Below, one piece after another: positions 2,975-23,277 of a stretch of 25,192 bases of DNA. Positions within the stretch are counted from its first letter, which is position 1. The number at the start of each line of letters is the position of its first letter. The stretch spans positions 55,097 through 80,288 of the IMG/VR virus record IMGVR_UViG_3300000116_000011, one strand, 5' to 3'. The DNA is from a virus. The translations under genes and the position numbers were made by a program. The notes under the pieces are model-generated. The model saw nothing but the letters and a program-made list of their open reading frames with translations, was not told where the DNA came from and ran no database searches.

Positions 2975-3889
2975 ATGGCATTTTATAAAGGAGAACATAT
3001 AAATCAAGAAATTTTTTCAAACAATCAAACTTCAATGATTGATCTATGGGAAATTTCAAGAATTGGAAATAGTGAAGATGTAATCAGGTTTCATGGTGGG
3101 GTAATTAATGTAACAGATAGCCTTAAGTTCAATAACAAGGAATACTTTTATCTACCTTTTGAGGTCTCTGACCTTAGCACAAGATCAGACGGAGGCTTAT
3201 CTAGACCTACAATTAAATTAATTAATTTTCAAGGCGTATTATCAAGATATATAAAAGACAAGGACGACTTGGTTAAAGCCGAAATAACTAGAACTAAAAC
3301 TTTTGTAAGATTTTTAGATAAAGAAAATTTTTTAAACTATGATGCAGACATAGATCACTGGAAATCTATGGGTATAGATCCTGATCCAAATGCTACATTG
3401 AGACCAGACAAGTGGATAATTAACCAAAAACTTACAGAAAATAAATTTTTTGTAGAATTTGAATTATCAAATGCTCTTGATTTTGAAAATGTTTCAGTTC
3501 CAAGAAGAGTTATATTAAATAATTATTGCTGGTGGAAATATAGAGGTAAAGGATGCGGCTATAATGGAGGGCCAATATCTGATTCTAATAATGTAGGATT
3601 TGTTATAGATGGAATCACAAACAAGGGGCTTTGGGAAGCTGGGGTAGATTATAAATTAAAAGATGTTGTAACTATTCAAGTGGACGATCAGGGTATAGAA
3701 AGTAGCCCAAGAAATGTAGTATACTATTGTATAGTTGCTCACACATCTAGCTCAAAAAACAAGCCATCAATAAATACTGAGTACTGGGCTAGGGATGCTT
3801 GTAATAAAAAAATATCTGGATGTAAATTAAGATTTCCAGATGCGGACTTCTTACCATACGGAGGCTTTCCAGGTAGTAGATTGTTTTAA
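2975..3889 (+). CDS. Minor tail protein L-like, Fe-S cluster tail-tip protein with an inserted binding domain
   Basis: A 304-residue homolog of lambda gpL. Hallmarks are the N-terminal DLWEISRIG segment, the PFEVSDLSTRSDGGLSRP block (residues about 61-78) and the cysteine region starting with NNYCWWKYRGKGCGYNGGP. Lambda gpL forms a ring in the tail tip and binds a 4Fe-4S cluster through four cysteines. Here C185/C194 and C276/C283 keep gaps of 9 and 7 residues, as I recall for lambda. The stretch between the pairs is 82 residues instead of about 23. It contains W220-x6-Y, a DVV strand, a YYCIVAH strand and a closing Trp271, the pattern of CBM5/12-type carbohydrate-binding modules. A further cysteine, C252, lies in that insert. 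The stop is one base before the JAB-domain gene, and the order M-L-K is that of lambda. Confidence 0.88.
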   Translation: MAFYKGEHINQEIFSNNQTSMIDLWEISRIGNSEDVIRFHGGVINVTDSLKFNNKEYFYLPFEVSDLSTRSDGGLSRPTIKLINFQGVLSRYIKDKDDLVKAEITRTKTFVRFLDKENFLNYDADIDHWKSMGIDPDPNATLRPDKWIINQKLTENKFFVEFELSNALDFENVSVPRRVILNNYCWWKYRGKGCGYNGGPISDSNNVGFVIDGITNKGLWEAGVDYKLKDVVTIQVDDQGIESSPRNVVYYCIVAHTSSSKNKPSINTEYWARDACNKKISGCKLRFPDADFLPYGGFPGSRLF

Positions 3890-3890
3890 T

Positions 3891-4274
3891 ATGATTCATA
3901 AACAAATAGCAGAAATATGCGAAAATCTCCCACAGGAAGAAAGTTGTGGATTTTTGCTATATAAACAAAAAAAATTTTTTGTTAAACAATGTGAAAATAA
4001 AGCGGAAGATAAGGCTAGATATTTCAAAATTGATCCATTTGATTATGTAAATGCATTTAAAAAATACAAAATATTAATGTGTTATCATTCTCACGTTTTA
4101 GGTGATGAATCCCCTTCCGATTATGATATAAAATATTCAGAAGAAATGCTTATGCCTTTATACATATATAGTACAGTAACAAAAAAATATAAAATACATT
4201 ATCCACAAAAGCTTAGAATGTATAAGAATCTGAAATTACTAACAGAAAGCAAGGTTAAGTTGTGTATATTATAA
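3891..4274 (+). CDS. Tail assembly protein K-like, JAB/MPN metallopeptidase domain only
   Basis: A 127-residue protein with a complete JAMM motif. Glu17 lies in EESCGF, and His66, His68, Ser76 and Asp79 give HSH-x7-S-x2-D exactly (HSHVLGDESPSDYD). These residues bind zinc in JAB/MPN peptidases, including the N-terminal half of lambda gpK. Lambda gpK also has a C-terminal NlpC/P60 peptidoglycan hydrolase domain; none is present here, since the protein ends about 48 residues after the motif. I chose the ATG at 3891, one base after the gpL stop, rather than the in-frame ATG at 3840, which would overlap gpL by 50 bases and add 17 unrelated residues. The gene for the ubiquitin-like gpI homolog follows after 16 bases, a pairing known in lambda-type tails. 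The last codons carry a promoter-like motif. Confidence 0.85.
   Translation: MIHKQIAEICENLPQEESCGFLLYKQKKFFVKQCENKAEDKARYFKIDPFDYVNAFKKYKILMCYHSHVLGDESPSDYDIKYSEEMLMPLYIYSTVTKKYKIHYPQKLRMYKNLKLLTESKVKLCIL
4260..4273 (+). promoter_or_regulatory. TTGTGTATATTATA motif upstream of the gpI-gpJ genes
   Basis: This exact 14-mer overlaps the last codons of the JAB gene (coding L-C-I-L-stop) and ends 17 bases before the gpI-like ATG at 4291. The same 14-mer occurs at 23264-23277 (minus strand) and 23303-23316, both directly in front of genes; I saw no other exact copy. This copy continues as AATAGG, so TATAAT is present within it. It could be a late promoter driving gpI, the very long gpJ gene and the genes after it. 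AAGGTT between the motif and the ATG could serve as a weak ribosome-binding site. Confidence 0.5.
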
Positions 4275-4290: not shown

Positions 4291-4989
4291 ATGGTAAATG
4301 TTTTTTTACATGGTAAATTGGGTCAGAAATTTGGCAAAGAATGGAAACTTGATATAAGTAGTCCGCTTGAAGCTATTAAAGCTATTGATGCGAACAAAGA
4401 AGGATTCCTTGGGTATTTACTAAAAAAGAGTCAAGAGCAAACTAAATATATGGTTTTCGTTGATAAGAAACCATTAAGAAGTCAAGATGAATTAAAAATT
4501 CAAGTGAATAAAGAAGCCGAAAATATTCACTTTTTTATGGTCCCACAGGGTGGAATAGGAATGATACTTGGTGGACTTTTGGGAATGTTTGGAGGCTGGG
4601 GTGCGGGTGCTTTAGGATCAAGCATAGGTGGATTTTGGGGAGGACTATTAAGCTGGGGTGGAAATTTATTATTCGAAATAGGTGGGGCTGTATTAATGCA
4701 AGGATTAATGGATAAACTAGTGAAGGAGCCTGATCCACCAGAAATGGAAGATAGTGCTCCTAAGATGAAAAGCACATCATCATTTACTTTTTCCAGACCC
4801 ATAAATAATATAACACAAGGAGCTAGAGTCCCAGTTGGTTATGGAAGATTAAGAGTTGGTAGCACTGTAATATCATCATCCGTAATGAATTGCAGATTAA
4901 ATGCATTTGATTACTTAAATGCAACAATAAAGAAGCCAGATGGATCTCTGGAAGGAGCGGTCATTGTTGATCAGTATACTGAAAGTTAA
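4291..4989 (+). CDS. Tail assembly protein I-like, ubiquitin-fold N-terminus with Gly-rich hydrophobic segment
   Basis: A 232-residue homolog of lambda gpI. Residues 1-86 fit a beta-grasp (ubiquitin-like) domain: NVFLHGKLGQKFG, a helix at about 25-33, YMVFVDKKPL, then FFMVPQ. A Gly-Gly at 87-88 is followed by about 55 Gly/Leu/Trp-rich hydrophobic residues (89-144), which could insert in a membrane or pack inside the tip. After an acidic Pro-rich linker comes the conserved tail FSRPINNITQGARVPVGYGR (about 167-186), typical of this family. GpI and gpK are needed for assembly of the lambda tail tip and are not prominent in the mature particle. Neighbours are the JAB peptidase before and gpJ seven bases after. 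The Gly-Gly at the end of the ubiquitin-like fold, beside a JAMM peptidase, suggests a possible cleavage site; that is inference. Confidence 0.82.
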   Translation: MVNVFLHGKLGQKFGKEWKLDISSPLEAIKAIDANKEGFLGYLLKKSQEQTKYMVFVDKKPLRSQDELKIQVNKEAENIHFFMVPQGGIGMILGGLLGMFGGWGAGALGSSIGGFWGGLLSWGGNLLFEIGGAVLMQGLMDKLVKEPDPPEMEDSAPKMKSTSSFTFSRPINNITQGARVPVGYGRLRVGSTVISSSVMNCRLNAFDYLNATIKKPDGSLEGAVIVDQYTES

Positions 4990-4996
4990 GTAAATT

Positions 4997-7900
4997 ATGT
5001 ATAACCTAGTATGTTACGCTTCTAATACTACACCCAGATTGTTCAGAAGAACAATAACTGGAGACGGTTTTGGTGGAAAATTTCTAGCTGTATCTAAAGA
5101 AGATAAAGAAAAACTACAATCCACAGCATTTATGAAAATGCTGGATGTTGTATCTGAAGGCCCAATTGAAGGGTTTTGTGATGCAACTGGAGGTTTAGTT
5201 CAGGGGGCTGGAATATTAAAGGGGATTTATCTAAACGATACACCCGTACAATTAACAACATCAGACACCTCTCAAGCTGGAATTTATAATTTTAGAAATA
5301 TATCAGTAGCATGGAAAAGAGGAGAGCTAGATCAAACTCCTTTTTATGTCAACCAGGGAGAAAGTGGAGAAACTGAAGATGACAACTTTTATTGGTTAGA
5401 AGATTTTTCTTATGCATCTCAAACTATAGGAAAAAATGTTCCGTTAGGAAATCAAGTTGAACTAGAAGAGAATGACGATGGCCAGGGAAAAAGAATAACT
5501 AGTCAAACAACACACTCAGTAATGGATGAAGATGTTGACTGGCTTGGGGTTACATTAAATGTAGATCAATGTTACACCATAGATAAAGCTGGAGAGCAAC
5601 AGCCCAATAAAGGTAAAGTTATGATATGGGGAGACATAACTGGCATTACACATCGAAGCCTAGATGATGGCGTGATCGAAGAAATTATACCTGATGGGTT
5701 AAACGACTACAATGTTCTTGTTGATATTCAAGGCTTATCTTTATCTCAATACAAAGAAGATATTTGGTTGAAATTAATTGACCCGAAAGATCTCTCTGGA
5801 CCTAGACCAAGACAGATTTACATAAGAAATGTAACAGCTCAGTCATACAATTTTAAAAGTAAATTTTCAGTAACACTTGACTCAGTTACAGAAATAGTAG
5901 ACAGGAACTTTAATTACCCAGGCTCTGCTATGATTGCATCATTAGTTAATGCAGAGAACTTTGGAAATGCTCCAACTAGGTCTTTTGACATGAAACTAAA
6001 AAGGGTAAAGGTTCCCAGTAATTATGTTGAAAAATTGGAGAATGAAAAAGGGCCAACAAATTTAAGGGCATATACAAGTAGTTATGGGTCAAAGGGTAGT
6101 TCGCATACAAGCGAAGAAAGACACGAAGGAGTTTGGGATGGGACATTTAAAGAAGAATTAGAATGGACCGATAATCCAGCTTGGATTTTGTACGATATAT
6201 TGACCAATGATATTTATGGTTTAGGAGAATACATAAGAGATGTTAATTTAGACAAATGGGAATTATTTAAAATTGCCAAATATTGCGACGAACTAGTTCC
6301 AACATCAATACCAGTTGACAACTCATTTAAAAAAGAGCGGAGATTTAGTTGCAACCTTTTGCTTCAAAATCCAGCAGATGCATACAAAACTGTAAATGAG
6401 ATTTGTTCGATTTTTAGAGGTATAGCATATTTCAATAATTTGGAGATTTTTATCTCCATGAATGCTCTTAAAAATTCAATATTTAAATTCAGCAATGATT
6501 CTGTATTAGAAGGAAATTTTAGTTATGCAGGAGCTCCAAGGCAGTCAAAATTTACAGCTGTAAAAGTAGCTTACAAGGATAAAGAAGATTCATTTTTAAC
6601 TAAATACGAATACGTAGAAGATCCCGAAGGCATCACAAGATACGGCTGGAATCTAAAAGAAGTAACGGCTGTCGGCTGTACTTCTCGAGATCAAGCATTA
6701 AGGACTGCTAGGTGGATTTTATTAACTTCAGTACTCGAGGAAGAAACTGTAAGTTTTACAACAGACAGTCAAGCAGAACATATAGAACCAGGGCACATTT
6801 TTACAATATATGATGAGTTAAGAAATGGATTTAAAGTAGGGGGGAGAGTATTAGAAGTGGTCGATGATAATCCTACCCCTAGTAAAAATTATGTTTTTAT
6901 AGATCAAAAATTAGATTTAACAAAAAAATACACAAGCATAAGCTTTTTAATCCCTGATGAAGATGTTAATCTAAATGAATCTGAACATTATATTGAATTT
7001 ATACATAGAAACGGACAGCATCAAGGTGCGTCCGATGGAGGGCAAAGAGATGCTGAAATAATTCCAATAAACTCAGAAAGATCTGCAAATACAAATTTAA
7101 ACAATTATTTTGAAGTAACTACATCTGGAACTAAAATATTAACTCATCAAAACGAAGATTTAATTCAAAGAATTCCAAAAGAAATAAGCTTTATAAGTTC
7201 TTCAGCTGGATACAAAACATTCAATGATTATTTTCTTGCTACAAATGTTTTAGCTGGAATGCCTAGAGGAGATGAAAGAAAATCAGTATCAACTAAACTA
7301 AAGGAAGGAGCCTTGTATATATTGCATGGAGAAGAAGCTGATGGGTCTACAGAAGCTTTTGATTCTAAAGAATATCAATTGTTAGGTAAAACAGAAAATC
7401 AGGATGGAACATATTCTATGATTGCAATGGAATATAATAGGGAAAAATTTAGCCAAACTGACTCTTTATCAACAATATATACAGCCAGGACAGTTCCATA
7501 CGACCCGACTCCAGCAAATAGACCATCAGCTGGAGGTGGACCTTTACCTCAATTTGATGACGATCCCGACGATAATACTCAAGTACAAAACTTAGGAGCT
7601 CCAGAAAAAAATACTATTGAAGTTATAATTGCTGCGACTGGATATGTAAATTCAGAAGGGGTTACTAGATCGAGAGCAAATTACTTCATACATAATTTAG
7701 AGGAGAATGAAGATTACTATAATCCAGATGTAACAAATTTTGGAAATTACTTCATGCGAGTGCAAAGAATCACTGAAGAGTACTACAGAAGTCTCGTGGT
7801 GACAAAAATGGGTAACAATGATACAAATTTATTACAAAATAATGAATGGAAGGTTCCTGGTCTCAAACAAAAATGTGGATCAAATAAGATTTTATGGGAT

Positions 7901-10900
7901 CTTAGTTTGGGTGCAGATCGAGACAAAGCTAGAGTTGGAGGAAGTAATAATTTAACAGTTAGTCTGCCAAACTATAAAGATTCTAAATTTACTCCATTTC
8001 TTGAAGTTGCTCACCCGAGATATGAATCTGAATTTGATGATTTAGCAATAGATGGTTGTGCAATATTTGATGCAGATGCATATGAAGCTAGAGTAACTGG
8101 TGCGGTATCTGGAGAATTTGAACTCCCTGATTCAAACGGTTATTACGAATTGAGATGGTCTGAGGCTAACGATTTTGGAAGATCAGAGGAAAAAGTAATG
8201 TTTTTCAGGGGAGAGCCTGACTTAATACCTCCCGACCCACCCGACCACTTTAATGTATCTCTAAACCCATTATTTCCGAATAACTTAAGCTTTAGATGGG
8301 AAAATGAATCTCCAGATAGAGAGTTAGATTTAATAGGATTTAGATTATATACTGGATGGGTAGGAGGAGAAGTTCCAGAATTTGAAAATACAAATTTAGG
8401 AGAAGAAGGGGCTGGGGGTTACAACGAATACAGATTACCTAAAATAGGATCTTCCTTTACAGAAGTTGTAGGTAAATATGCATCCCATACCGTTTATGAA
8501 GCAGATACAAGTAGAGGGTCTTTTGCTGATTTAAATGGAAATCCTTTAGGTATAGGAACGAATGCTATGTTCCATATAAGAGCATTTGATGTAGCAGGAA
8601 ATTTTAGTGATCCAAGAAATAGTAATTTAATTAGTTTATTTGATGTGGCTGTAGCTCCAGACTTATATCTTTCTGGAGAAATAAGAGAAGAAGGTAAAGG
8701 AACTGATACATATAGGCAGTCTCCAATACTTCATGCATTTTACTCAGGACAATTTCACAACGACAAAAGTTTTAAAAAATATTTTCTAAAAATTAATGAT
8801 GAAACCTTTGGAGTGTCCAATCACTCAATAAATATTTTTCAGGAAGATATAAAAACTGCACCAGCACAATATGAAGCTGGTGCATCTGGTCATCTTGAAA
8901 TAAGAGAAGTAACAGCCAACACAGAATATTTCGGAAAATTATCGGCTTTCACATCAGAAAACAGAGAATCCTTAGTGGCAACTTCTACTGCAAAAATAGG
9001 TAAAGATAATTTTGCTCCACTAAAAATTAAAAACTTTGAAATTAGAAAACAGTTTTCTGACTTTGAATTTTCCTGGGATCCTCCTCCAGAGGCGGATTGT
9101 AATAGAGTCCTACTTTATACTGGAGTAGGTAAAGATAATTTTGGAGAAGTTACTGTAGATCAAAATAAAATCATCGAAATTGCAAAAAATAAAAATGGAT
9201 TAATTGCTTCGGTAAATAAAGACGATAGACCAGTATTTCCTATATCTAGATTTGACGATGTAATACAGTACAAAAATGCTGCAACTACATATCCATTTCA
9301 CATTCTTCCAGTAGATACTTCTGATAATACAGGAGTTTATACAGATGCAGAATTTAAAACGGTGGACATGTCTCCTCCTGTTCTACACACTAGTGGAACA
9401 GTAAATGAAGCAGGTCAAGGATTAGTTCATGTTTTTTACTCTGGAGTAGCTCAAGATGATAGTACTTTTCAATACTATCTTACCGAATATAAAGATATTA
9501 ATTCTTTCGATATTAAGACCTTCCAAGGGAAGGACAAAGCTGCTTATAATGATAGCGATACTTATGGAGGATCAGGGCATTTTGTATTTGAGGCAAATGG
9601 AAATACATTTTACGATGTAAAAACTAGAATAGTTTTAAGTAAAAATGAAACTGATTGGGCTACTGATACAATTTTAAGCAATGAAATTTATGATGTTGTA
9701 TCAGATCATGTTTATGTACCAAGAGATTCCAAACCTCCAGGAAAATTAGAAAGATTCAGGGTCAGTAAAGAGTGGTCGAATTTTAGATTCTCTTGGGATG
9801 AACCTAAAGAAAATGATGTAGTAAAAGTTTTACTCTATACTGGAATTGGTAAAGAAAATTTTGATTTTACAGTAGAAGAAGAACAGTCAACCACAAAAAT
9901 AGAGGATCTCCCAATAGATTACTCGAGTCCCTTTGCTTCAGTTCTTCCTGATGATGCACCCTCTTTTGCAATAGATAAATTTAATAAACCTGGTTCAGAA
10001 TCATACGAAAACACAAAATGGTATTTTCATGCATTGGCCGTAGATAGCTCTAATAATACAGGAATGTATGTGGATACATCATTTGAATATGTTAATTTAG
10101 ATGGTCCAGTAGTTCATACCAGTGGAGAAATAACATCAGATGGCAGGTCTGTAATACATGTATTTTATTCAGGACAGGAACAAAACGACGATTCTTTTAG
10201 ATATTATTTCACGGAGTATCAGAATGTTGAGGAGATGACTTTATTGGGTCAAAGAGATTCAACTAAAGCCTTTCATAACCCTGGGGTTCTTGGAGAAGGT
10301 TCGGGGCATTATATTTTTGAAGCTAAAGGAGATAGTTATTATGAAGTAAGAGTCAAATCTGTTTTTGATATTTTTCAATCAAATTGGGCTGATGATACAA
10401 TACTGACAAATAAATATTATGATATAAAACCTGGATATGAGGACTATATATATGCTGCTCCAGATAACATCCCACCTGGTACACCAACTTGGATTTCTTC
10501 TCAAAAAAATGGAAATAATATATTTTTAAGCTGGGAAAATCCAGGTGACCATGATTTAGAGCATATACATTTATATACTGGAACTGATATAGCTACAGTT
10601 TCAGAAGATGAATACTCTTTTTCAGACCAAAAAAAGGTTGCTATTCATCAATCGACGATAGCAATTTCGGATATAATTCCATTAAAAGATTTTTCTGCAA
10701 ATGCGGGTAAGAAATTTTATTTTTGGCTTCAAGCTGAAGACACATCGAACAATAAAGGAAAGATAAGCGAAAGAAGATTAGTGGATGTAGGAAGAACAGA
10801 AGCTTTATTTAGAGACGAAGTAAGATGCACTACTGGAATAATTAATGACGATGGGGGTGATGGAACATCTTATGCATTTATAAATTATTTAATAAATGAT

Positions 10901-13900
10901 GATCCGCTCAATAGGCAACATTTATCTTATACTATACAACTATCAAAAAGACCAAGCTTTAACCCATTAATAGGAACACAAGAAATTCCTGTACAATATA
11001 GTGACGATGATGATGATTTAAAGGTAAGATATCCTGGCAGGAATATTGGAAGCGGAATCTTTAGTAATTTAGAAGCTAATCAAACATATTATTTAAGAGC
11101 AAGAATCAATGAGCATGACGGAAAGCAAAGCCAGTGGACTTTGTCTTACGATAATCCAATAAAAACTCCAAAAGATTCAACTCTCCCAAAAATTCCAAAT
11201 AACTTTAATATAATTTCAGGACCAAAGCAAATATTCTTGGAATGGGATTGGGATCAAGGCATATCAAAAGATACTGATAGTATATTGGTTTATAAGACAG
11301 GAATACCGACAGGTATAGTAAAAGAAGATTCTGTTGAGCCTACTTTAGCAAACCCAAACACTAACTGCTGGAAGATGTCTCATATTAGCGGTTATTTCTT
11401 TAATAATCCAGAATTATATACATACAAACTTTCAGCATCGACATCATATATTGATAATGATGTAGAAACAGGCATTAATGGAGAAAGTATATACTATTTT
11501 TATTTTTTAAGGACGTTAGATAAATCAGACAACTTAAGTAAGCAATTTGTATCAGGAATATCCAGAGATGTTCATAATTATTATCCTGTAAATAAAGCTA
11601 AAACTATTTTCTCAAACGAAGCTAACTTAGCATTTGGGGAAACCCCTCACACTCAAGGATATGTGACTGGAGGAGCTGTTAGTGCAGATTACATATCTAA
11701 TATATATGCAAGCAGAATTTTAACTGATAGAATAACTGCAGCAGATTTTATATTATCACACCCAAGCGGAAGAGTTTTGAGTGATAATGTATTTACAAGA
11801 GCTGTAGAAACTCCACAATATGCATATTCAATAGGAAAGGGTGTATACTTAGACCATAAAATGTTCAGAATAGGCGACCCTTCTCCAGGAGGGTACGGAT
11901 TATTCTGGACTGGTCATAAAGAATATTCTGATTCAGATTTTACAAAACCTACATTTTCAAAAGACCCAGATGGTTTTCATGCCATAGATATAGATCCAAA
12001 CACTTTAGAGATTAGAGGAAATTTAACTGCTGGAACTATTGAAATTGGAGCAAGTAGAACTTCGGCTTTTAATGTTGACTCAGAAGGAAACTTAACAATC
12101 GGAAACCAAACAAAAGAAATCTCTGGATTCTTTAAGGGAGAGCTTGGTGTTAGTGGTATTTTTGGGGAAACATATGAGGGATACGATTACGATGATCAAT
12201 ATTCTTCTGTATTTGTACAAATTGAAACTGATCATTTAACTGCCATAGAAAAAGCGGCTATAAGGCCAGGAGTATATCTAGAAACAAACTGGAAAAGAGG
12301 TCCTTTTTATTATGGCTGGGAGATAGCTCAAGTAGAATCATTTAACCAAAGTAATGGTATATTGAAACTTGAACTTCCTGGTTTAGAATACAACGGTTTT
12401 GATTTTTATAATTTATTTGGAAATGCATACGGATTAAGTGGAGTTACTACCACAGGATCAAGAGATTGGGATTCAAATAATGTACCAGTCGTTAGAGATT
12501 ACTGGAGAATACATGATGCTAAATTTAAAGTCACTAAAGACGGGTCTTTATTCGCTGCAGATGCAAAAATTTTAGGAACTGCAAAAGCAGATGCACTAGA
12601 AGTTGGACAAACAATTGTTCTAGGAGACACTTACAATAGTTACAGTAGTGTAATTCAAAGTTATAATTTTGATGATGATTTTAATCCTTGTGACCCAACA
12701 GAAGATGCTCGAGGTTGGAAGATTGTAGGTGATGGAACAGCATACTTTAAAAGTATTGACATTCGTTCGGGTTTACTTAGCGGGTCCATGGGATTAATTA
12801 TAGGAAATGGATGTTACGATAATGCATTTTTTAGGGTAACAAGTAAAGGTGATATATCTATAGGAAGAAGCTTAGTTTATCACAATAACCCATTCTATGT
12901 TTCCAGAGAAGGAAATTTATTTGCTCAAGATGCTGAATTTAGAGGAGATTTAAATATTTCTGGTAGAGTGGATGTTGGAGATGGAATGAGATTTGGTAGC
13001 CATGTTACTAGAGACAGATTCGGAACAGTAATTAGTGCTACAGATGAAGATGGAATTTTAATCAACAGATTTGGATTGCAGTCTACTAATTTTCAGCATG
13101 GATCCGACAAAGGGTTCCAGTTAACACAAAATGGTAAAGCAATTTTACATAATTTAGCCGTAACTGGAGGCTGGATAAGTGGCGCAAATCTATTGATTGG
13201 AAGAGGTTCCAGAGACAACCCATGGTTTAAAGCATTTTCCAATGGAGATATAAGTTTAGGAGATTATGCAGGAGCCAAATGGACTACAAATGGATCTTTA
13301 AGTACAGCTGCAACAGCTCCAAGCAAGAATCACCCATTTTTTGTATCTCGGAAAGGAACTCTCAAAACTAAGGATGCTTACATCATAGGTGATGTTGGCA
13401 TATCTGGCAATGTAGATGTTGGAGATGGTATAAGATTTGGATCTCGGGTCAATAGAGACGAATACGGAAATGTTACATCGGTAACAAAAGATACAAATGG
13501 TATACTTATAAACAGCAGTGCTATGCGCTCCATAAACTATCAAAGCGTTTGGGATGGTACCACAAAGAGTTTTTATTTGGGCGCTGATGGAGAAACAATA
13601 CTAAGCGATCTTGTAGTTAGAGGAGGAAACATTAGTGGGGTCAAAATGATGATAGGTAAAGGAACATCAAGCGAACCTTGGTTAAAAGTTTGGGATGATG
13701 GAGAAATCAGCATAGGATCTTATGGATATAGTAATAGAAATAGAGCTCCTAAAAACACGGATCCATTTTATGTAGACAAACAAGGCTCTATGTGGGCTCA
13801 AAATGCATTTGTAAAAGGAACAATCACTGGAAGATACGGAAGAGTGGGCAGTTTGATCATGGATCCAGACTGGTTATCAACATCTCACCCTGATTATGAT

Positions 13901-14641
13901 GTACCAAGAACTAGCAACAATTTACAAACTGTAGCTGCTGGAGCGCATAATGCAAGTACAAATCCATATAGGGTTGGTTGGTATATAAATTCAGAAGGGC
14001 ATTTTTCTGTGGTAAATGAAGCTGGAAAACTTTTTGGATGGGCAGGTGAAAATCAATATTTAACAGTAACTGGTTTAGCGAGCAGCTCTAAAGATAATGC
14101 AATATATGAAACTACCAGACATCCCTCAAATTACGATCCGCCAGACCCTAATACATATGGTAAAGGATTCCTTCTTCAGGGAGAACACATGGGTGGATGG
14201 ATATCTAATTTTAGAACAGACCCAAAAAGTGCTTGGGGTATAGCAAATCAAGTTATTACTTGCATACATGGAGATATTAGGTTACCCGTTTTAAATGATT
14301 TATATACAATAATATCAAATAGTCCTATAGGATACTTTGTTTCAGGTATATATCTAGAGACTGATGTGGACAATGCCACTGTTAGGTTTACTAAAAACGA
14401 TCCTCAAGCAGCTGTGCCAAGTATATTGGGGCCTGAAAATAAATATGGAAACTTCACGGCTACAAAAGCTGGTTATTATACAACCTTGAGTAATACAAAT
14501 AAAATAGAACCAGGAGCAAACAAAGATTCATATCTAGTTGCTAAACCAACATCCGTGGGAACTAATACCAGCATAAGATTCAGGATAGATTTATATAGAC
14601 AGGGCAGTTATACGAAAAACACTGCAGATGCATCTTGGTAA
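4997..14641 (+). CDS. Tail tip host-specificity protein J-like, giant fibre with tandem FN3-like domains
   Basis: A 3214-residue central tail-tip/fibre protein, nearly three times lambda gpJ (1132). The N-terminus has the gpJ signature FMKMLDVVSEGPIEGF (residues 45-60) and ends its first block with GIYLND. Residues about 394-482 carry further conserved blocks: IYGLGEYI, the IAKYCDELVP segment and RFSCNLLLQNPADAYKTVNE with FRGIAYF. From about 1075 to 2190 lies a string of fibronectin-III-like and related beta domains in a period near 240 residues. From about 2250 the protein carries phage tail repeats of the kind FYVSREGNLFAQDAEFRGD, with three longer copies starting at 2592, 2725 and 2877. 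The C-terminal 250 residues are unique and probably contact the receptor. In lambda, gpJ forms the tip hub and binds the receptor with its C-terminus. The gene begins seven bases after gpI. The start is less certain because MYNLVCYAS is not typical of the family. Confidence 0.9.
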   Translation: MYNLVCYASNTTPRLFRRTITGDGFGGKFLAVSKEDKEKLQSTAFMKMLDVVSEGPIEGFCDATGGLVQGAGILKGIYLNDTPVQLTTSDTSQAGIYNFRNISVAWKRGELDQTPFYVNQGESGETEDDNFYWLEDFSYASQTIGKNVPLGNQVELEENDDGQGKRITSQTTHSVMDEDVDWLGVTLNVDQCYTIDKAGEQQPNKGKVMIWGDITGITHRSLDDGVIEEIIPDGLNDYNVLVDIQGLSLSQYKEDIWLKLIDPKDLSGPRPRQIYIRNVTAQSYNFKSKFSVTLDSVTEIVDRNFNYPGSAMIASLVNAENFGNAPTRSFDMKLKRVKVPSNYVEKLENEKGPTNLRAYTSSYGSKGSSHTSEERHEGVWDGTFKEELEWTDNPAWILYDILTNDIYGLGEYIRDVNLDKWELFKIAKYCDELVPTSIPVDNSFKKERRFSCNLLLQNPADAYKTVNEICSIFRGIAYFNNLEIFISMNALKNSIFKFSNDSVLEGNFSYAGAPRQSKFTAVKVAYKDKEDSFLTKYEYVEDPEGITRYGWNLKEVTAVGCTSRDQALRTARWILLTSVLEEETVSFTTDSQAEHIEPGHIFTIYDELRNGFKVGGRVLEVVDDNPTPSKNYVFIDQKLDLTKKYTSISFLIPDEDVNLNESEHYIEFIHRNGQHQGASDGGQRDAEIIPINSERSANTNLNNYFEVTTSGTKILTHQNEDLIQRIPKEISFISSSAGYKTFNDYFLATNVLAGMPRGDERKSVSTKLKEGALYILHGEEADGSTEAFDSKEYQLLGKTENQDGTYSMIAMEYNREKFSQTDSLSTIYTARTVPYDPTPANRPSAGGGPLPQFDDDPDDNTQVQNLGAPEKNTIEVIIAATGYVNSEGVTRSRANYFIHNLEENEDYYNPDVTNFGNYFMRVQRITEEYYRSLVVTKMGNNDTNLLQNNEWKVPGLKQKCGSNKILWDLSLGADRDKARVGGSNNLTVSLPNYKDSKFTPFLEVAHPRYESEFDDLAIDGCAIFDADAYEARVTGAVSGEFELPDSNGYYELRWSEANDFGRSEEKVMFFRGEPDLIPPDPPDHFNVSLNPLFPNNLSFRWENESPDRELDLIGFRLYTGWVGGEVPEFENTNLGEEGAGGYNEYRLPKIGSSFTEVVGKYASHTVYEADTSRGSFADLNGNPLGIGTNAMFHIRAFDVAGNFSDPRNSNLISLFDVAVAPDLYLSGEIREEGKGTDTYRQSPILHAFYSGQFHNDKSFKKYFLKINDETFGVSNHSINIFQEDIKTAPAQYEAGASGHLEIREVTANTEYFGKLSAFTSENRESLVATSTAKIGKDNFAPLKIKNFEIRKQFSDFEFSWDPPPEADCNRVLLYTGVGKDNFGEVTVDQNKIIEIAKNKNGLIASVNKDDRPVFPISRFDDVIQYKNAATTYPFHILPVDTSDNTGVYTDAEFKTVDMSPPVLHTSGTVNEAGQGLVHVFYSGVAQDDSTFQYYLTEYKDINSFDIKTFQGKDKAAYNDSDTYGGSGHFVFEANGNTFYDVKTRIVLSKNETDWATDTILSNEIYDVVSDHVYVPRDSKPPGKLERFRVSKEWSNFRFSWDEPKENDVVKVLLYTGIGKENFDFTVEEEQSTTKIEDLPIDYSSPFASVLPDDAPSFAIDKFNKPGSESYENTKWYFHALAVDSSNNTGMYVDTSFEYVNLDGPVVHTSGEITSDGRSVIHVFYSGQEQNDDSFRYYFTEYQNVEEMTLLGQRDSTKAFHNPGVLGEGSGHYIFEAKGDSYYEVRVKSVFDIFQSNWADDTILTNKYYDIKPGYEDYIYAAPDNIPPGTPTWISSQKNGNNIFLSWENPGDHDLEHIHLYTGTDIATVSEDEYSFSDQKKVAIHQSTIAISDIIPLKDFSANAGKKFYFWLQAEDTSNNKGKISERRLVDVGRTEALFRDEVRCTTGIINDDGGDGTSYAFINYLINDDPLNRQHLSYTIQLSKRPSFNPLIGTQEIPVQYSDDDDDLKVRYPGRNIGSGIFSNLEANQTYYLRARINEHDGKQSQWTLSYDNPIKTPKDSTLPKIPNNFNIISGPKQIFLEWDWDQGISKDTDSILVYKTGIPTGIVKEDSVEPTLANPNTNCWKMSHISGYFFNNPELYTYKLSASTSYIDNDVETGINGESIYYFYFLRTLDKSDNLSKQFVSGISRDVHNYYPVNKAKTIFSNEANLAFGETPHTQGYVTGGAVSADYISNIYASRILTDRITAADFILSHPSGRVLSDNVFTRAVETPQYAYSIGKGVYLDHKMFRIGDPSPGGYGLFWTGHKEYSDSDFTKPTFSKDPDGFHAIDIDPNTLEIRGNLTAGTIEIGASRTSAFNVDSEGNLTIGNQTKEISGFFKGELGVSGIFGETYEGYDYDDQYSSVFVQIETDHLTAIEKAAIRPGVYLETNWKRGPFYYGWEIAQVESFNQSNGILKLELPGLEYNGFDFYNLFGNAYGLSGVTTTGSRDWDSNNVPVVRDYWRIHDAKFKVTKDGSLFAADAKILGTAKADALEVGQTIVLGDTYNSYSSVIQSYNFDDDFNPCDPTEDARGWKIVGDGTAYFKSIDIRSGLLSGSMGLIIGNGCYDNAFFRVTSKGDISIGRSLVYHNNPFYVSREGNLFAQDAEFRGDLNISGRVDVGDGMRFGSHVTRDRFGTVISATDEDGILINRFGLQSTNFQHGSDKGFQLTQNGKAILHNLAVTGGWISGANLLIGRGSRDNPWFKAFSNGDISLGDYAGAKWTTNGSLSTAATAPSKNHPFFVSRKGTLKTKDAYIIGDVGISGNVDVGDGIRFGSRVNRDEYGNVTSVTKDTNGILINSSAMRSINYQSVWDGTTKSFYLGADGETILSDLVVRGGNISGVKMMIGKGTSSEPWLKVWDDGEISIGSYGYSNRNRAPKNTDPFYVDKQGSMWAQNAFVKGTITGRYGRVGSLIMDPDWLSTSHPDYDVPRTSNNLQTVAAGAHNASTNPYRVGWYINSEGHFSVVNEAGKLFGWAGENQYLTVTGLASSSKDNAIYETTRHPSNYDPPDPNTYGKGFLLQGEHMGGWISNFRTDPKSAWGIANQVITCIHGDIRLPVLNDLYTIISNSPIGYFVSGIYLETDVDNATVRFTKNDPQAAVPSILGPENKYGNFTATKAGYYTTLSNTNKIEPGANKDSYLVAKPTSVGTNTSIRFRIDLYRQGSYTKNTADASW
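8220..11560 (+). repeat. Five-fold ~240-residue supra-repeat in the gpJ-like gene
   Basis: Two domain types alternate. Type B has a D/P-x-PP start, an F-x-F-x-W-strand and ends in LYTG; the LYTG tyrosine codons start at 8348, 9116, 9836, 10574 and (as VYKTG) 11291, giving spacings of 256, 240, 246 and 239 codons. Type A has HTSG, then HVFYSG and a DDSF-x-YY strand; its YSG codons start at 8741, 9437 and 10166, with a diverged fourth copy near 10800-10950. The second and third B copies are most alike (FEFSWDPP / FRFSWDEP, LLYTGVGKDNF / LLYTGIGKENF). The copies are conserved as protein rather than as DNA. Confidence 0.8.
12770..13860 (+). repeat. Three C-terminal fibre repeats in the gpJ-like gene
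   Basis: Copies start at 12770, 13169 and 13625, so the steps are 133 and 152 codons. Each begins with a Gly-x-(I/L)-S-G turn, then (L/M)IG-G, a hydrophobic F/W-F/L-K/R strand, G-(D/E)-ISIG, and a NPFYV / HPFFV / DPFYV strand followed by (R/K)-x-G and an (A/D)A-x-(F/I) strand. The first two copies continue with nearly identical VDVGDGMRFGS / VDVGDGIRFGS segments; the third lacks that part. Such repeats are common in phage tail fibres and in the C-terminal parts of gpJ-like proteins. Confidence 0.75.
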
Positions 14642-17800: not shown

Positions 17801-19353
17801 TTTTGACTACAAGCCCGAACTCACTAAGTAATTCTTCTTTTACATTAAGAATACCAAGGGGCTCCCCAAATGAAGATTATACATGGGGAAATTACAAACT
17901 TTCAAATTTTGATGGAGATAATTATACGTTAAATAGAGCTTGGCAATTGGGAAATCAAAATGATGTAACCTGGTTTGAGTTATTTATATCAACGCCAGCT
18001 GAGACTGAAAAAAGTTTATATGAAATATTTAATACTTCCTGGTGGGGAGATCAATCATCGGGAGGAATAACAGGAAAACCAGACAGGCATCCATTTTTTT
18101 CTAATGAGCTTTCTGAATCTCTTCACATTAGAAATGGATTTACCAGCCTAGCATACTGGCAAGATTCTTACTGGAATAATAGAGCTGGACAATTTGGGCA
18201 TGTCTCTTCAAAAGTCAAGGGTAATGTGAACTGGGATGTGGCAAGTTGGGTTAGTTATTGGGAGTGTGCTCATACAGTTTATGACGGCCCATGGAAATCT
18301 ACAAACAATGGAGAGCCAGTAAATTATAATCTTGATTTTGGAGAGCCTGGGGATAGTGAATATTGGAAGGGTCCAAGAGGAGATGATGTTTACCCATATC
18401 AACAAGACTTTAATAAACCAAACTATAATCCTGTTGGTGGATGGATTCCTCCCACACCAATGGGAAAGGGAGATTATAGACATATTAGACCGCCCGCTGT
18501 GAATATGGCAAATTATGCAACAGTTCAAGCTAGCTCTGCAGGATGGTTTAGTAATTTAGATAATTTTACAATGGATCCAGGCATAGCTGCCCCCGTTAAA
18601 GACACTCAAGGAAATTCAGTTAATTTTAGAATTAATTCTTTTATATTTGGGGGAATGGATAAAGCTTCTGGAGCAATATGGCCTGGATATGGTTATGATC
18701 AATCAGTAAGATACTTAATAGGAGATTTAGATACGAATATAGAAAACAAAGCTGATTGGGCTAGTATGATGGTGGATGCATTTGGTATACCCGATACCAG
18801 CGGAAATGTTCCATTGATGCCATATCTAGACAGGCCATGGATGGCATTTTCCTCATTTAAAACTTTTCCCGCACTAACTGCATATTATCAAATAGGGCAA
18901 AGAACAAATTACGACACCGACATAGCTTCATTTAATATGACTTCATTAGAAAATGCTGGAAATAAAGGTAGTACTCTTGGAAATTTCTGGAAAGATAATA
19001 GTGCTGGAAAAGCATTAAGAAGATCTGCTGTAGAACCAGCGGAAAAATCTAGATTAGAAAAAAGTTTATTGAATGAATGGGTATTAGCATCCTATGGATA
19101 CGATAATGATATAATGGGGTGGGGAAATAAAACAGCGGGAACAGAACCTCATTTTATAACTATTTTTGAGAGTAATGAGTTTATAAAAAAAGGAACTACA
19201 TTTTCAGTATCTTTTCAACAGGCTGCTACAGCATTCAATAGAGAGTTAGAAAGAACTGCTGGAGGCTACAGTGAAATTGATGAGACTTTAGGTATGGGAA
19301 GAACAACTATAGATATAGATAGTTACGAACTTTACCTTTGTGCCATACCTTAA
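14875..19353 (+). CDS. Large Trp/Tyr-rich protein of unknown family, probable tail fibre or receptor-binding protein
   Basis: A 1492-residue protein that I cannot assign to a family. It lacks a signal peptide, membrane segments and obvious long repeats. It is unusually rich in Trp, Tyr, Asn, Asp and Ser, with many aromatic clusters such as KYWWQHRGGY, LNWWGYTD and DHAWWEGDSFFGDY, as seen in carbohydrate-binding surfaces and adhesins. Cysteines are concentrated around residues 340-600 (for example PSDCPG, GCPWN, YCMKK, GCYLK, FCTN, GCYW). The N-terminal 60 residues (IYWNNYGAIADIAELGHF) would be the likely attachment end. Its position downstream of gpJ, where phages place fibre and host-range genes, supports a structural role. 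Codon and base use look like the flanking tail genes. The stop overlaps the stop of the converging gene on the other strand. Confidence 0.65.
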   Translation: MPFDQIYWNNYGAIADIAELGHFVKSSAHDVRFGQTKTEDSHSVFSFAGERRDRIMEFYNLYYYDGRNPYNERNREEIYKVFYDPSFDGYDQNDPSRSRYAMGSEQPYVFGWPDMESYENQVATNTFYGNTVNNMTVDDIENVYTQKRNYSRKINPDDGSVLNEGTSSHSTLSDDLFQAQNRESCHWLSNTAHAHTVENPFIGIHKDNPITVTADKNFLGYALVLKRKRYNYWERNLRLVHPNGYSAIDPRPFKQHKTDYRRVFLGSWNQYHEQVGDASWNQTNWYHVKRAGYTWTIGVNWDKYRRTKDNANFRIKVPDSDGYYPYEDEWTPTFNTNVDCFTGGGGDGNGYFDVEAYVDGEGNQIYYSSDEAIEYNEGYNYPSNMSKCTEFKMIWVEYPSDCPGSFIDYDSDGSTVLFDDNLCSEFALFDESAGDYHDKIWEDLDTLSNDSSLESDIDYSIYSNSIYGGPNIMFMYYPDQGGCPWNIVQLYTKYWWQHRGGYCMKKKSLDDAGVESTKPVAYGYQQSTWEFIYTTARRQNQGLGCYLKTVRSCNSNENDPTGLNWWGYTDAKMNFCTNLIADSEFYDWMDGCYWTVDHWMFSSNRSSAPSNFNTIKDSGNKILTDKWFFRQPGTAGSSYDGLFENSTNPVYLKIGRPLDANNTNGFSNINGTFPFGAVGEQYIESNSSNAVGERFWDVDNYDMVQRSGAAWLQYNMFFTRMPKIGHAAPQPLSTTTQNNNHLGNFSVVDIHEARHIESYVQPYIYQQDFTDGYPRAHPYSIYWTSFFQVTDNDDLPMFPEDYFHEGETLAKHKWVSDHAWWEGDSFFGDYLGLLGDTHRAYKNSEGKYEIERVWWKDSIDVKDAAIHPSYSKRQLTDTGSIYLKNMTIKKNGNVLHAWKDTIGEWIEQPSSEIYTDRSSKIVATNTSSNRKVITFSNMYSNNNNRCKRYFDTSFQIKFGNSTTWHEISAVNNGNIVLTTSPNSLSNSSFTLRIPRGSPNEDYTWGNYKLSNFDGDNYTLNRAWQLGNQNDVTWFELFISTPAETEKSLYEIFNTSWWGDQSSGGITGKPDRHPFFSNELSESLHIRNGFTSLAYWQDSYWNNRAGQFGHVSSKVKGNVNWDVASWVSYWECAHTVYDGPWKSTNNGEPVNYNLDFGEPGDSEYWKGPRGDDVYPYQQDFNKPNYNPVGGWIPPTPMGKGDYRHIRPPAVNMANYATVQASSAGWFSNLDNFTMDPGIAAPVKDTQGNSVNFRINSFIFGGMDKASGAIWPGYGYDQSVRYLIGDLDTNIENKADWASMMVDAFGIPDTSGNVPLMPYLDRPWMAFSSFKTFPALTAYYQIGQRTNYDTDIASFNMTSLENAGNKGSTLGNFWKDNSAGKALRRSAVEPAEKSRLEKSLLNEWVLASYGYDNDIMGWGNKTAGTEPHFITIFESNEFIKKGTTFSVSFQQAATAFNRELERTAGGYSEIDETLGMGRTTIDIDSYELYLCAIP

Positions 19354-21023
19354 CTACAGCTTCCAACCCCGCTACAATTGTGACCTGTTACTACCTTTTT
19401 GAATATAACATCATACTCAGTACAATACGGAGAAGTCCAATCAAAATATGAAGCGCCCAAATTGGTATTAGGGTGATTATGGGCTACACATTCTTTACCT
19501 GCTTCTTTCATTACATATTCTTCTGCAGCAGGCGAATTCGTTCCACAGGCATTCCTACAATACCACGAACTTGTTCCACCAAGTCCATTAGGTCCTGGAA
19601 TATGTTTACTGTACCGACTGCAAGTTTTCGCCCAAGGCTGACATGGAGGGGGAGGCGGATTTGGTGGAGGATTAGGCGGTGGCGGAGCAGGTGGTGGAAC
19701 ATTAGGTGGTGGAACATTAGGCGGTGGAGTAGGAGGAGGAACAGGGGGAGGAGGACTAGGTGGAGGAACACTACAACCGCAGCCTGCTGACCCATTACAA
19801 TCTGCAACCATCATGTAGCCACAAAAGTCATTACCAGTCATGTCTTTTGAGTCACAACATTCTTGTCCAGCAGATGTACATTTTGATGGAACAGGAGTTT
19901 GTTGAGGGTGGTCTCCACAAGGATCACCATCTTCATATTCGCCCCCTTCTGTTGGGTGCCATACAGTAGCTTGTCCCTTCGTACATCTCATTCTCGTTTT
20001 ATCAACACTTATTGAGTGATTAGATCTTCCAGGGAAAAATATATTTACATTTCCGCTGTCTGGTCCCGTAAGAGCTGACATCATTAGCGGCATAATAAAT
20101 CTATTGTATCCAATTGGTTGAATTAATCGATTTAAAATAGCTTCAGCATAATGACTTCTATTTGGTTTTAAAATAGGAGTTTCTTTATCGACTCTACTCA
20201 AAGGATTTGAGTCTAATAAAGTATTAATTGAATTGATATCTATAGATCTTCCATGAGCATACATATTTTGCTCAAAAACAGTAAATCCAACACTGACTCT
20301 AGTTTGAATTCTCCTATTGACAAAATTAGTTTTTCCAGTTTTGTCTATTGTGGCCTCTTCTATTTCTGCAACATTTTGAGTATCGCTTATGGATGAAAAA
20401 TCTACATTGTTTGCTATCCTAGCAGAATGCTGACTTACCCAGTCGTTAATAGTAGGTTTTTCATTAAATGCCCTCCTTACTCTTGTTCCATAATCTGGAA
20501 ATGTTGCCATTTTACCTTTGTTTGCATTATATATTGCAGTTTCTATAGGTTGATCAAAAACAGTTACTGTTTTGGGGCTTCCGTTTTCTTCAGTAACTAC
20601 ATCAAAAGTAGTATTTATAGGATTACCCCTTATTATAGTTTGAAGAGATCTAAAACTGATATCACCTTCACCAGTATCGGTACTAACTATTACAGTAAGC
20701 ATCAAAGTAACAACCTCACCAGGTTGAATATTTTTTACTTTTAAAATCGGAGAATCTCCTGTGTTTTTTAGAAATTCAAACTCAACAAAAGTTTCTTCAA
20801 ACTTCGCTCTTTTAAAGTTGCTTTTCCATGTTTCTATATTCCAATTGTAATTAGTAACTTCGGGTAAAGAATAAAATTCTGGGAATTCTTTGACTAATTC
20901 CATATCAGTTTCATCATACACCCATGTAGCTCTAGGTGCTACTATTGCATTATTCCCCTCAATTCCTTCTTCGTCAGACCTTGGAGTTCTCCAAACACTA
21001 TGATCAACAGTTATAAATGCCAT
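19350..21023 (-). CDS. Pro-tract and cysteine-rich protein of unknown family, probable virion adhesin
   Basis: A 557-residue protein in three parts. Residues 1-346 contain no cysteine and look beta-rich with an Ig-like stretch around 92-133 (VKNIQPGEVVTLMLTVIV). Residues 347-417 carry nine cysteines, including SAGQECCDSKD and SAGCGC. Residues 420-460 are a Pro tract (31 of 41 residues Pro, mostly PPP plus one spacer), followed by 97 residues with eight more cysteines. A rigid proline stalk joining two disulfide-type domains suggests an exposed stalked adhesin. I chose ATG 21023 (MAFITVDH), two bases after the upstream stop; an ATG at 21077 would overlap that gene by 52 bases. It is second in a two-gene minus-strand unit. 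Its stop shares TTAA with the stop of the converging gene. No family was recognised. Confidence 0.68.
   Translation of the reverse strand: MAFITVDHSVWRTPRSDEEGIEGNNAIVAPRATWVYDETDMELVKEFPEFYSLPEVTNYNWNIETWKSNFKRAKFEETFVEFEFLKNTGDSPILKVKNIQPGEVVTLMLTVIVSTDTGEGDISFRSLQTIIRGNPINTTFDVVTEENGSPKTVTVFDQPIETAIYNANKGKMATFPDYGTRVRRAFNEKPTINDWVSQHSARIANNVDFSSISDTQNVAEIEEATIDKTGKTNFVNRRIQTRVSVGFTVFEQNMYAHGRSIDINSINTLLDSNPLSRVDKETPILKPNRSHYAEAILNRLIQPIGYNRFIMPLMMSALTGPDSGNVNIFFPGRSNHSISVDKTRMRCTKGQATVWHPTEGGEYEDGDPCGDHPQQTPVPSKCTSAGQECCDSKDMTGNDFCGYMMVADCNGSAGCGCSVPPPSPPPPVPPPTPPPNVPPPNVPPPAPPPPNPPPNPPPPPCQPWAKTCSRYSKHIPGPNGLGGTSSWYCRNACGTNSPAAEEYVMKEAGKECVAHNHPNTNLGASYFDWTSPYCTEYDVIFKKVVTGHNCSGVGSCS
19644..19766 (-). 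repeat. Proline-codon repeat (PPPx), G-rich on the plus strand
   Basis: About 120 bases encode residues 420-460 of the minus-strand protein, dominated by PPP triplets separated by S, V, T, NV, A or N. On the plus strand this reads as runs of GGTGG, GGAGGAGG and GGGGGAGG, in sharp contrast to the AT-rich surroundings. Short units such as GGTGGTGGAACATTAGG occur twice in tandem, which suggests growth by slippage or unequal exchange. Confidence 0.85.
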
Positions 21024-21025
21024 AA

Positions 21026-23257
21026 TTAATAATCCTCGTCTACTGGGTAAGTTCTTCCTGGTGTGAAATAACCCCATGGATCAGTTATCCATTCATCTCC
21101 TTCTCCTGATTCATCAGCATCAACGAATTCAGTCCAGACAGTTTCATCTGTATAAAAATCAGAGTCGTCGGTTCCCAAGTAACCTTCTGGGTAACCGTCG
21201 ATTTGATTTCCATAAGGTCCATCATAGTCGGTAAGATGTGGGGTATAATGAACATGCGGCTTTCTATGAGTATCAACAACTACATGCCACTGTCTATCCA
21301 TTAAAGTTGCTATTCCAGAAACACATGCATTATTAATATCTGGTATTTCTACATCATATTCTACTTGACCTTCATACATATCAGGCCTCATGGAGTAAAA
21401 AACTGCATCTTCTGGACCATTATAATATTTTTGGCCAGCTAAATTTAAATATCCATAAGTCGAATTTGATAAAATGCAGGCCTGTATAAAATGCCAGCAT
21501 CCTGTTTGATTTAAAGCATTTCCAGAAAGATTACAGTGAACAAATTGATTACTAGCTATAGGAACAGGAAGCAAGCCTCTATTGAAGAAATATTCGCTTT
21601 TGGAATCTAAATCTTCACCAAAATAGAAAGGGCTTCTCAATCCGCTTGGAACTTCCCTCTGTAATCCATATGGAAAAGTTGTTTTATCAAAATCATCATG
21701 ATATCTATGAACTCCATTCCATACATTTAATCCACAATTAACTATCTTTAATTGTTCTATGTCACTAGTTAATGCTTGAGGAAGAACAAGGTCAGTAAAA
21801 TTTTTACATCCAGAAATTTTTATTTCTCTTAAAGCACGTTGGTTAATTAAATAGTTTTGATTGGGAATTCTCATTCCGATAATAGTATCATTATCGAGTA
21901 TATTGACATTTCTGTATTGCTGAAATCTATTACCTAAATATCCACTAGGAGCACCAACATACCAATAATTTTCTTCGGAAAAAGAATTATCTACACCATT
22001 TTCATCTAGATCCCCTTGATTCCCGCTTGCATAAAATGTATGTAGTGGATAAGAGTGATCCATACTCATAATAGATGAAAATACAACTTCATTAACTTTT
22101 TTTGGTTTGGCTCCAGTAATATAAACGACTTCTTCTGTATTATTTGCATCAACAGATTTATTGAAATAATATTCAAGACCATCATACTGTTCTTGAATCT
22201 GAATTCTAGTAGGCTGAGTTATTACACCTGGAGTTCCAGAAGAAAAAACACCTCTATGAAACCAATTTTCATCAGCAGGAACATCACGTACCATTTGATA
22301 CATATGTCCCGCAGGACCTTTATTTGAGCCATCCTGAATGCAATAAGAACTACTTTCAAAAATAATTTTATAATCTGTTCCAGGAAATAAATCCATGCCA
22401 TAAGCCCAAAACTGATAAGGTATTTGACCAGTTGTATTAAATCTAAGATTATAAACAGCATTGGTGTCGTCACTTCCATGGTAACCCGTAATGGAACCAG
22501 TAATAACAGCTGGATCAGAATGCATATCACCAGTAACATATAAATAATTATCAGACCTATCTCCTGTTAACCTAGCTTGAAACATATACGGACCAAATTG
22601 AGCCAACTCAAGATTTCCCATTGTGGATACATCATATCCAGAAACCCCACTAATTAAGTCTTTATCAATTACATATTGTAATTCTTCACAGGTTAAAAAA
22701 TATTTAAGTTTTCGACTTAGTCTGTTACCATCTTTATGCTTGTACCCAATTCTATAGTGACATTCTCTTAAAGGCGCATAGTCTTTAAAGTTCATATTAC
22801 CACTAAACCAAGGTCTAACTTGACCATACGTAGCAAACCAATGTTCATAATCTTCCGCATCAACTTCATAATCTGGGTCGTCTGGCCAAGGGTATGTAGG
22901 TTCAGGTATAACTTCTAATCTTTTTTTCGTGTCTTCATAGCTCATAAGGGGGAATTCCTTACTTGATAATTCGCTATTAGAGCTAGAAGCAAAAGGGTCT
23001 TTTACGAAGTCTCGATTAATAGACATTCCATGATCATTAGGCGTAAATCTATTTAAATCGACTTCAATTCCAAAATATTTAGAAACATCTCTTACATACT
23101 TGTACGGATTGTTTACTAAATCTCGATATCTTACGGGGTCTTGAGGTCCAGTCCAACCTAGAGAACCCACTTCCCAGACTCCTCCTTTAATGCTAATTTT
23201 ACCAGCAATGTGCCCTTTTACCACTCTAGGAATTGGATTTTGAGAATTTTCTGCCAT
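21026..23257 (-). CDS. Large structural protein of unknown family with a leucine-rich stretch
   Basis: A 743-residue protein that opens the minus-strand unit. The N-terminal 50 residues (VVKGHIAGKISIKGGVWEVG) look beta-rich, followed by a Pro/Asp/Trp-rich region. Residues about 475-612 have LRR-like spacing of Leu/Ile and Asn/Cys: LREIKISGCKNFTDLVLP, IEQLKIVNCGLNVW, CNLSGNALNQTG and YLNLAGQ, which resembles a short irregular leucine-rich repeat domain. The C-terminus is acidic and Asp/Glu/Tyr-rich. No signal peptide or membrane segment is seen. The reading frame also has an ATG at 23263 and a GTG at 23275; I prefer 23257 because it gives MAEN, like the gene at 24569, and leaves the promoter-like motif outside the coding region. 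The next gene begins two bases after its stop. A host-binding or decoration role is inferred from context only. Confidence 0.65.
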   Translation of the reverse strand: MAENSQNPIPRVVKGHIAGKISIKGGVWEVGSLGWTGPQDPVRYRDLVNNPYKYVRDVSKYFGIEVDLNRFTPNDHGMSINRDFVKDPFASSSNSELSSKEFPLMSYEDTKKRLEVIPEPTYPWPDDPDYEVDAEDYEHWFATYGQVRPWFSGNMNFKDYAPLRECHYRIGYKHKDGNRLSRKLKYFLTCEELQYVIDKDLISGVSGYDVSTMGNLELAQFGPYMFQARLTGDRSDNYLYVTGDMHSDPAVITGSITGYHGSDDTNAVYNLRFNTTGQIPYQFWAYGMDLFPGTDYKIIFESSSYCIQDGSNKGPAGHMYQMVRDVPADENWFHRGVFSSGTPGVITQPTRIQIQEQYDGLEYYFNKSVDANNTEEVVYITGAKPKKVNEVVFSSIMSMDHSYPLHTFYASGNQGDLDENGVDNSFSEENYWYVGAPSGYLGNRFQQYRNVNILDNDTIIGMRIPNQNYLINQRALREIKISGCKNFTDLVLPQALTSDIEQLKIVNCGLNVWNGVHRYHDDFDKTTFPYGLQREVPSGLRSPFYFGEDLDSKSEYFFNRGLLPVPIASNQFVHCNLSGNALNQTGCWHFIQACILSNSTYGYLNLAGQKYYNGPEDAVFYSMRPDMYEGQVEYDVEIPDINNACVSGIATLMDRQWHVVVDTHRKPHVHYTPHLTDYDGPYGNQIDGYPEGYLGTDDSDFYTDETVWTEFVDADESGEGDEWITDPWGYFTPGRTYPVDEDY

Positions 23258-23263
23258 ATTCAT

Positions 23264-23277
23264 TATAATATACACAA
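23264..23277 (-). promoter_or_regulatory. TTGTGTATATTATA motif, left arm of divergent promoter region
   Basis: Read on the minus strand, TTGTGTATATTATA continues as AT, and the preferred start codon of the 743-residue gene lies six bases after the 14-mer. It matches exactly the motifs at 4260-4273 and 23303-23316. The embedded TATAAT looks like a -10 element; no -35 hexamer is evident, since the upstream sequence is an A/T run. Confidence 0.55.

Follow-up and report, generated by a model that had tools for sequence, protein, structure and literature searches.

The window analysed here, a stretch of 25,192 nucleotides forming the terminal part of an 80,288-base virus record (IMG/VR IMGVR_UViG_3300000116_000011, positions 55,097 to 80,288), carries tail-tip genes in the order M-L-K-I-J, as in phage lambda, according to the Pfam and PHROG matches of adjoining open reading frames (ORFs). 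Specifically, a gpM-like distal tail protein (1986-2951; Pfam Phage_min_tail, E 9.5e-11, above the cut-off) precedes a homologue of the tail-tip hub protein gpL (2975-3889, 304 amino acids), which is followed by a gpK-like protein starting at the ATG at 3891 (3891-4274; Pfam Prok-JAB, E 1.9e-8), a gpI-like tail assembly protein (4291-4989; phrog_32, E 5.8e-32) and a gpJ-like central fibre protein of 3214 residues (4997-14641; Pfam Phage-tail_3, E 2.4e-13), all on the plus strand. The gpK-like protein is short and holds the JAB domain only, with no NlpC/P60 part found in it. Further along the window lie two large ORFs on the minus strand (19350-21077 and 21026-23275) with no convincing family match, the former with a proline-rich tract followed by a cysteine-rich C terminus.

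The ORF at 2975-3889 matches both Pfam Phage_tail_L (PF05100; 139.9 bits against a cut-off of 25, E 9e-41) and TIGR01600 (157.7 bits against 70.75, E 2.5e-46). Lambda gpL (8iyk_L) was recovered with E-values of 6.6e-18 by phmmer and 1.6e-15 by Foldseek, and the F2-pyocin hub was also among the PDB matches. Alignment with lambda gpL and relatives delimits an N-terminal tail-tube-like domain at residues 1-176 (2975-3502, plus strand), termed HDI after the naming of the gpL N-terminal domain in PMC10721106. The same protein carries two pairs of cysteines, each predicted to belong to an Fe-S site: C185/C194 (3527-3556, plus strand), aligned to lambda C173/C182, and C276/C283 (3800-3823, plus strand), aligned to lambda C205/C212. 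Both pairs are invariant across an alignment of 33 gpL sequences.

The spacing between these pairs sets the protein apart. Its cysteines are C185, C194, C252, C276 and C283, which gives a four-cysteine spacing of 9/82/7, so that the two pairs with 9- and 7-residue steps reported in the preliminary description stand as given. The distance between the second and third cysteines of the four-cysteine set, 82 residues here, is 23 residues in lambda and in Erwinia phage Midgardsormr38, and among 19 distinct prophage gpLs, drawn from a 399-genome sample of one phylum in which 18 genomes had PF05100 matches, it is 23 in 18 proteins and 24 in the remaining one. The surplus is about 59 residues, in agreement with the roughly 60 proposed earlier, and places the window gpL far outside the usual range. 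Alignment to the Midgardsormr38 and lambda proteins puts the inserted stretch at residues 205-273 (3587-3793, plus strand), and the coordinates 3632-3787 previously assigned to the domain correspond exactly to W220 through W271 of the 304-residue ORF. This core on the plus strand, with conserved W/Y220, Y226, V232, C252, P264 and W271, displays the order W, Y, DVV, YYC..H, P, W that had been read from the sequence, and its main positions are conserved in nine related gpLs. The fifth cysteine, C252 (3728-3730, plus strand), is the motif cysteine (YxC) of CBM5/12 modules inside the insert and is invariant in nine inserts. It was considered as a fifth cluster ligand and is unlikely to be one, because it occupies a regular CBM5/12 position, common in members of that family.

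Assignment of the insert to CBM5/12, made in the preliminary description from residue order, is supported by Pfam, by hhalign and by the predicted fold. Of the Pfam families, the insert matched CBM_5_12 (PF02839) alone (E 4.7e-5), at a score of 23.8 bits that lies 2.4 bits below the gathering score of 26.2; four of nine related inserts matched the same family at E-values up to 0.1. When compared by hhalign with an alignment of 18 CBM5/12 domains from the family search plus ChiA1, the insert scored 96.6%, the best of 200 column shuffles reaching 12.2%, and when compared with the ChiA1 chitin-binding domain alone it scored 86.8%, with 100 shuffles at or below 2.9%. Our own CBM5/12 profile had a single match among all ORFs of the window, the gpL homologue itself (E 3.5e-6), split into blocks at residues 220-234 and 249-272 that a longer hairpin separates, and with this profile no second CBM5/12-like domain was found elsewhere in the window. 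A sequence search of the PDB with the insert profile returned mostly chance antibody matches on the YYC motif and ChiA1 only at E 0.83.

Structure prediction points in the same direction. In the AlphaFold2 model of the whole protein, no part of the C-terminal half is modelled better than the insert: ten-residue means across residues 211-270 are 67-93, with the minimum at the hairpin at 239-243, and the linker at 169-184 is poorly modelled; disorder of the insert, the outcome named beforehand as counting against a separate domain, was thus not seen. Modelled alone (a single model, mean pLDDT 77.8), the insert retrieved CBM5/12-bearing chitin enzymes at ranks 1-9 and at most ranks to 17 of a Foldseek search of the PDB, including Vibrio chitin deacetylases and ChiA1 (1ed7, TMt 0.75), with probabilities mostly of 1.00 and E-values of only 0.02-0.4, the domain being short. 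In BFVD the matches were to domains of CBM5/12 type in the tail fibres and minor tail proteins of phages (best E 1.9e-4). We conclude that in predicted fold and in family the insert is CBM5/12-like, of a type common in phage tail proteins. It has in common with the ChiA1 domain (1ed7) and those of the Vibrio chitin deacetylases both the fold and the order W, Y, V, Y, C, H, P, W, and differs from CBM5/12 domains in the longer hairpin between the two conserved blocks.

A further difference from ChiA1 bears on the ligand. The tryptophan of the ChiA1 GWEPS motif, which we take to be W687, essential for chitin binding, aligns with asparagine in the window insert and with lysine or threonine in its near relatives (ChiA1 sequence verified against 1ed7). 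This column is variable in CBM5/12 generally, with tryptophan in one of 19 alignment members. Since the window insert has asparagine in place of tryptophan at this key binding position, chitin is doubtful as its ligand; another glycan is possible.

CBM-type gpLs number nine among the viral contigs, the window gpL included, and all keep the four cysteines. Across the nine inserts, W/Y220, Y226, V232, C252, P264, W271 and D274 are kept at identities to the window insert as low as 18%. In most, though not all, pairs of CBM-type gpLs the insert is less conserved than its flanks (for example, 39% against 62% and 67%). Both close pairs have a dN/dS well under 1, and they show no sign of positive selection in the insert or of an arms race. 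Separately, the gene L ORFs of one environmental clade (L018, L021, L025, L026, L030, L037, L080, L085 and L194) are extended at the N terminus by about 65-75 residues, which also resemble CBM5/12 (hhalign 93.6%, a partial alignment over 28 columns).

The same loop holds other domains in other gpLs. One such protein (L035:1501-3027) carries a mannose-lectin domain, B_lectin (PF01453), between its cysteine pairs (E 9.6e-8, above the cut-off), and a search with it led to dozens of contigs (L091-L155 and L193) with loops of about 290-318 residues that combine B_lectin with further beta-rich sequence, the B_lectin match of L193 falling just under the cut-off. Counted on viral contigs retrieved through conserved peptides, with no more than 80 loci kept, and hence as minima and not as population frequencies, lectin-type loops come to at least about 39 distinct examples, most with intact mannose motifs: the strict motif QxDxNxVxY is present one or more times in 37 of the 40 distinct long loops, while the other ORFs of the retrieved loci, 173,619 residues in total, have 12 matches. 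Synechococcus cyanophage S-CBS4, among the matches listed the sole cultured phage whose loop is long, has a 259-residue stretch without an assigned family between its cysteine pairs (L175:1-1323). Phages N15, phiKO2 and HK225 and an Acinetobacter phage came up as candidates in tblastn searches, but their proteins have the 23-residue step.

In a gpL core tree built with the loop removed, CBM-type proteins form one clade (support 98/97) and lectin-type proteins another (100/98). A single clade of all long-loop gpLs was rejected (p 0.0015), a value that is indicative, since a quick tree was already in view when this grouping was put to the test. Within PF05100 the loop was filled independently at least twice, and probably three times. 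Because unrelated domains, one of them clearly lectin-type, occupy the same loop in related phages, this site resembles a socket that accepts sugar-binding modules.

Variation in gpL extends to other sites. One protein (L194:1273-2889) has a near-normal cysteine loop and an insert of about 220 residues, beta-rich in appearance, between the second cysteine pair and the C-terminal PFGSFPG motif. In L211:601-1860, in L212 and in Klebsiella phage RCIP0100 (L225:153-1418), it is the N-terminal domain and not the Fe-S loop that bears large inserts. The gpLs of Prochlorococcus phage P-HS2 (L227:1186-1758) and Marine virus AG-345-A17 (L228:1474-2466) lack the Fe-S cysteine domain altogether, and the N-terminal domain of the latter contains an insert that looks cupredoxin-like by eye.

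On balance, we favour the reading that the window encodes a lambda-type gpL hub on which a module of CBM5/12 fold is displayed as a putative glycan-binding decoration. A module of about 60 residues, of a kind common in phage tail fibres, has taken the place of the short connection between the two cysteine pairs in the Fe-S domain, and by homology this insert would be presented three times around the tip. Its putative role would be in adsorption, probably through a low-affinity, multivalent grip on a surface glycan. In lambda, the Fe-S domain lies on the outer surface of the tip (PMC10721106), which makes an exposed glycan-binding decoration the most likely interpretation of a domain placed in this loop. 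We infer cluster binding by the four cysteines, exposure of the insert, glycan binding and the part in adsorption. What inclines us towards glycan binding is the CBM5/12 family and fold, the lectin-type clade at the same loop, the precedent of the RcGTA and R4C hubs and an insert that is often less conserved than its flanks. Several observations weigh the other way: the loss of the ChiA1 tryptophan, a tailspike (CBA120 TSP1) with this fold and no known sugar binding, the Pfam score 2.4 bits under the cut-off, the modest E-values of the fold matches, the low dN/dS and an RcGTA precedent whose sugar-binding role was itself assigned by structural resemblance.

The main rival to a glycan-binding decoration is reuse of the CBM5/12 fold as a protein-protein adaptor, through which the large gpJ, a side fibre or a tail spike would attach to the tip and which would bind no sugar. 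It holds this place because the head-binding region of the CBA120 tailspike TSP1 has the fold of the ChiA1 chitin-binding domain and no known sugar binding (PMC3966878); the missing ligand tryptophan fits it too, as do the many viral fold matches that fall in proteins of the tail and its fibres, in which a domain of this sort may serve a structural purpose. However, glycan binding better suits a loop that in a separate clade holds lectin-type domains with intact mannose motifs, and an insert that often diverges faster than its flanks, so that we regard an adaptor as rather unlikely. An insert that is a tolerated decoration of little function, accepted because the cluster holds the ends of the loop together, would agree with the short loops of all 19 distinct prophage gpLs sampled, which show that many gpLs manage without an insert, and with the presence of at least three unrelated inserts in this loop. 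Such neglect is hard to square with CBM motif positions kept across gpLs that are only about 35% identical, or with an insert dN/dS far below 1, and we consider it improbable.

Least probable is that a change in the Fe-S cluster, brought about when the insert binds a glycan, helps to trigger genome release. The position of the insert between the two ligand pairs would allow such coupling, and the lambda structure paper leaves the function of the cluster to future characterisation (PMC10721106). Yet the four cysteines are also kept in gpLs that have no insert at all, and the cluster therefore cannot exist for glycan coupling alone. A more speculative extension of the glycan-binding reading, which we put forward tentatively, is that the cluster acts as a staple that holds the ends of a surface loop and so provides a socket in which CBM5/12, B-lectin and RcGTA-type modules can be exchanged without disturbing the tail tip. 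If true, this would supply a reason to keep a cluster whose role is open. The repeated occurrence of unrelated domains, at least one of them lectin-like with intact sugar motifs, points to the loop as a host-recognition site on the tail tip, beside the central fibre. It also offers a sequence rule, a distance of more than about 60 residues between the second and third cysteines, by which candidate receptor-binding modules can be flagged in hubs annotated only as minor tail protein L.

Compared with lambda gpL (PF05100, PDB 8iyk), the window gpL has the N-terminal domain and the four aligned cysteines in common, and differs in that the lambda protein has a 23-residue step between the pairs and no inserted domain. 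One paper comments that gpL is hypervariable in its C-terminal region, close to the cell wall (PMC13243795). The closest precedents in design are the trimeric tail-tip hubs of RcGTA and R4C, in which a four-cysteine Fe-S domain is split by a domain of about 80 residues named as oligosaccharide-binding (PMC7296036, PMC10276861): ion-binding segments 143-167 and 250-263 flank an inserted domain at 168-249 in the RcGTA hub (g13), and segments 142-161 and 244-266 flank one at 162-243 in the R4C hub. The sugar-binding role in RcGTA was itself named from structural similarity, and the inserted domain of these hubs is of another kind, compared by the authors with LKA1 gp49 and T4 gp27 (PMC7296036, PMC10276861). 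Both hubs match the whole window gpL in structure only remotely and are absent from the best 50 PDB matches of its insert. The upper baseplate protein of phage JBD30, with Cys147, Cys156, Cys238 and Cys245, has a 9/82/7 cysteine spacing identical to that of the window gpL (PMC11445458); its match to the whole protein is weak (Foldseek E 4.8e-5, 11% identity), and it too is missing from the best 50 matches of the insert. As RcGTA, R4C and JBD30 match the whole model and not, within those 50, the insert, the domains that they carry at this site appear to fold differently from it.

The idea of a glycan-binding domain inside a gpL-type loop is therefore already published for the RcGTA and R4C hubs. 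Its CBM5/12 and B-lectin versions in lambda-type gpL, for which no counterpart was found in the literature searched, appear unreported. The evolved distal tail proteins of lactococcal and streptococcal phages follow the same design idea, a glycan-binding CBM set within a tail-tip ring protein; there the carrier is Dit and not gpL, the insertion site is another and the CBMs are of other types.
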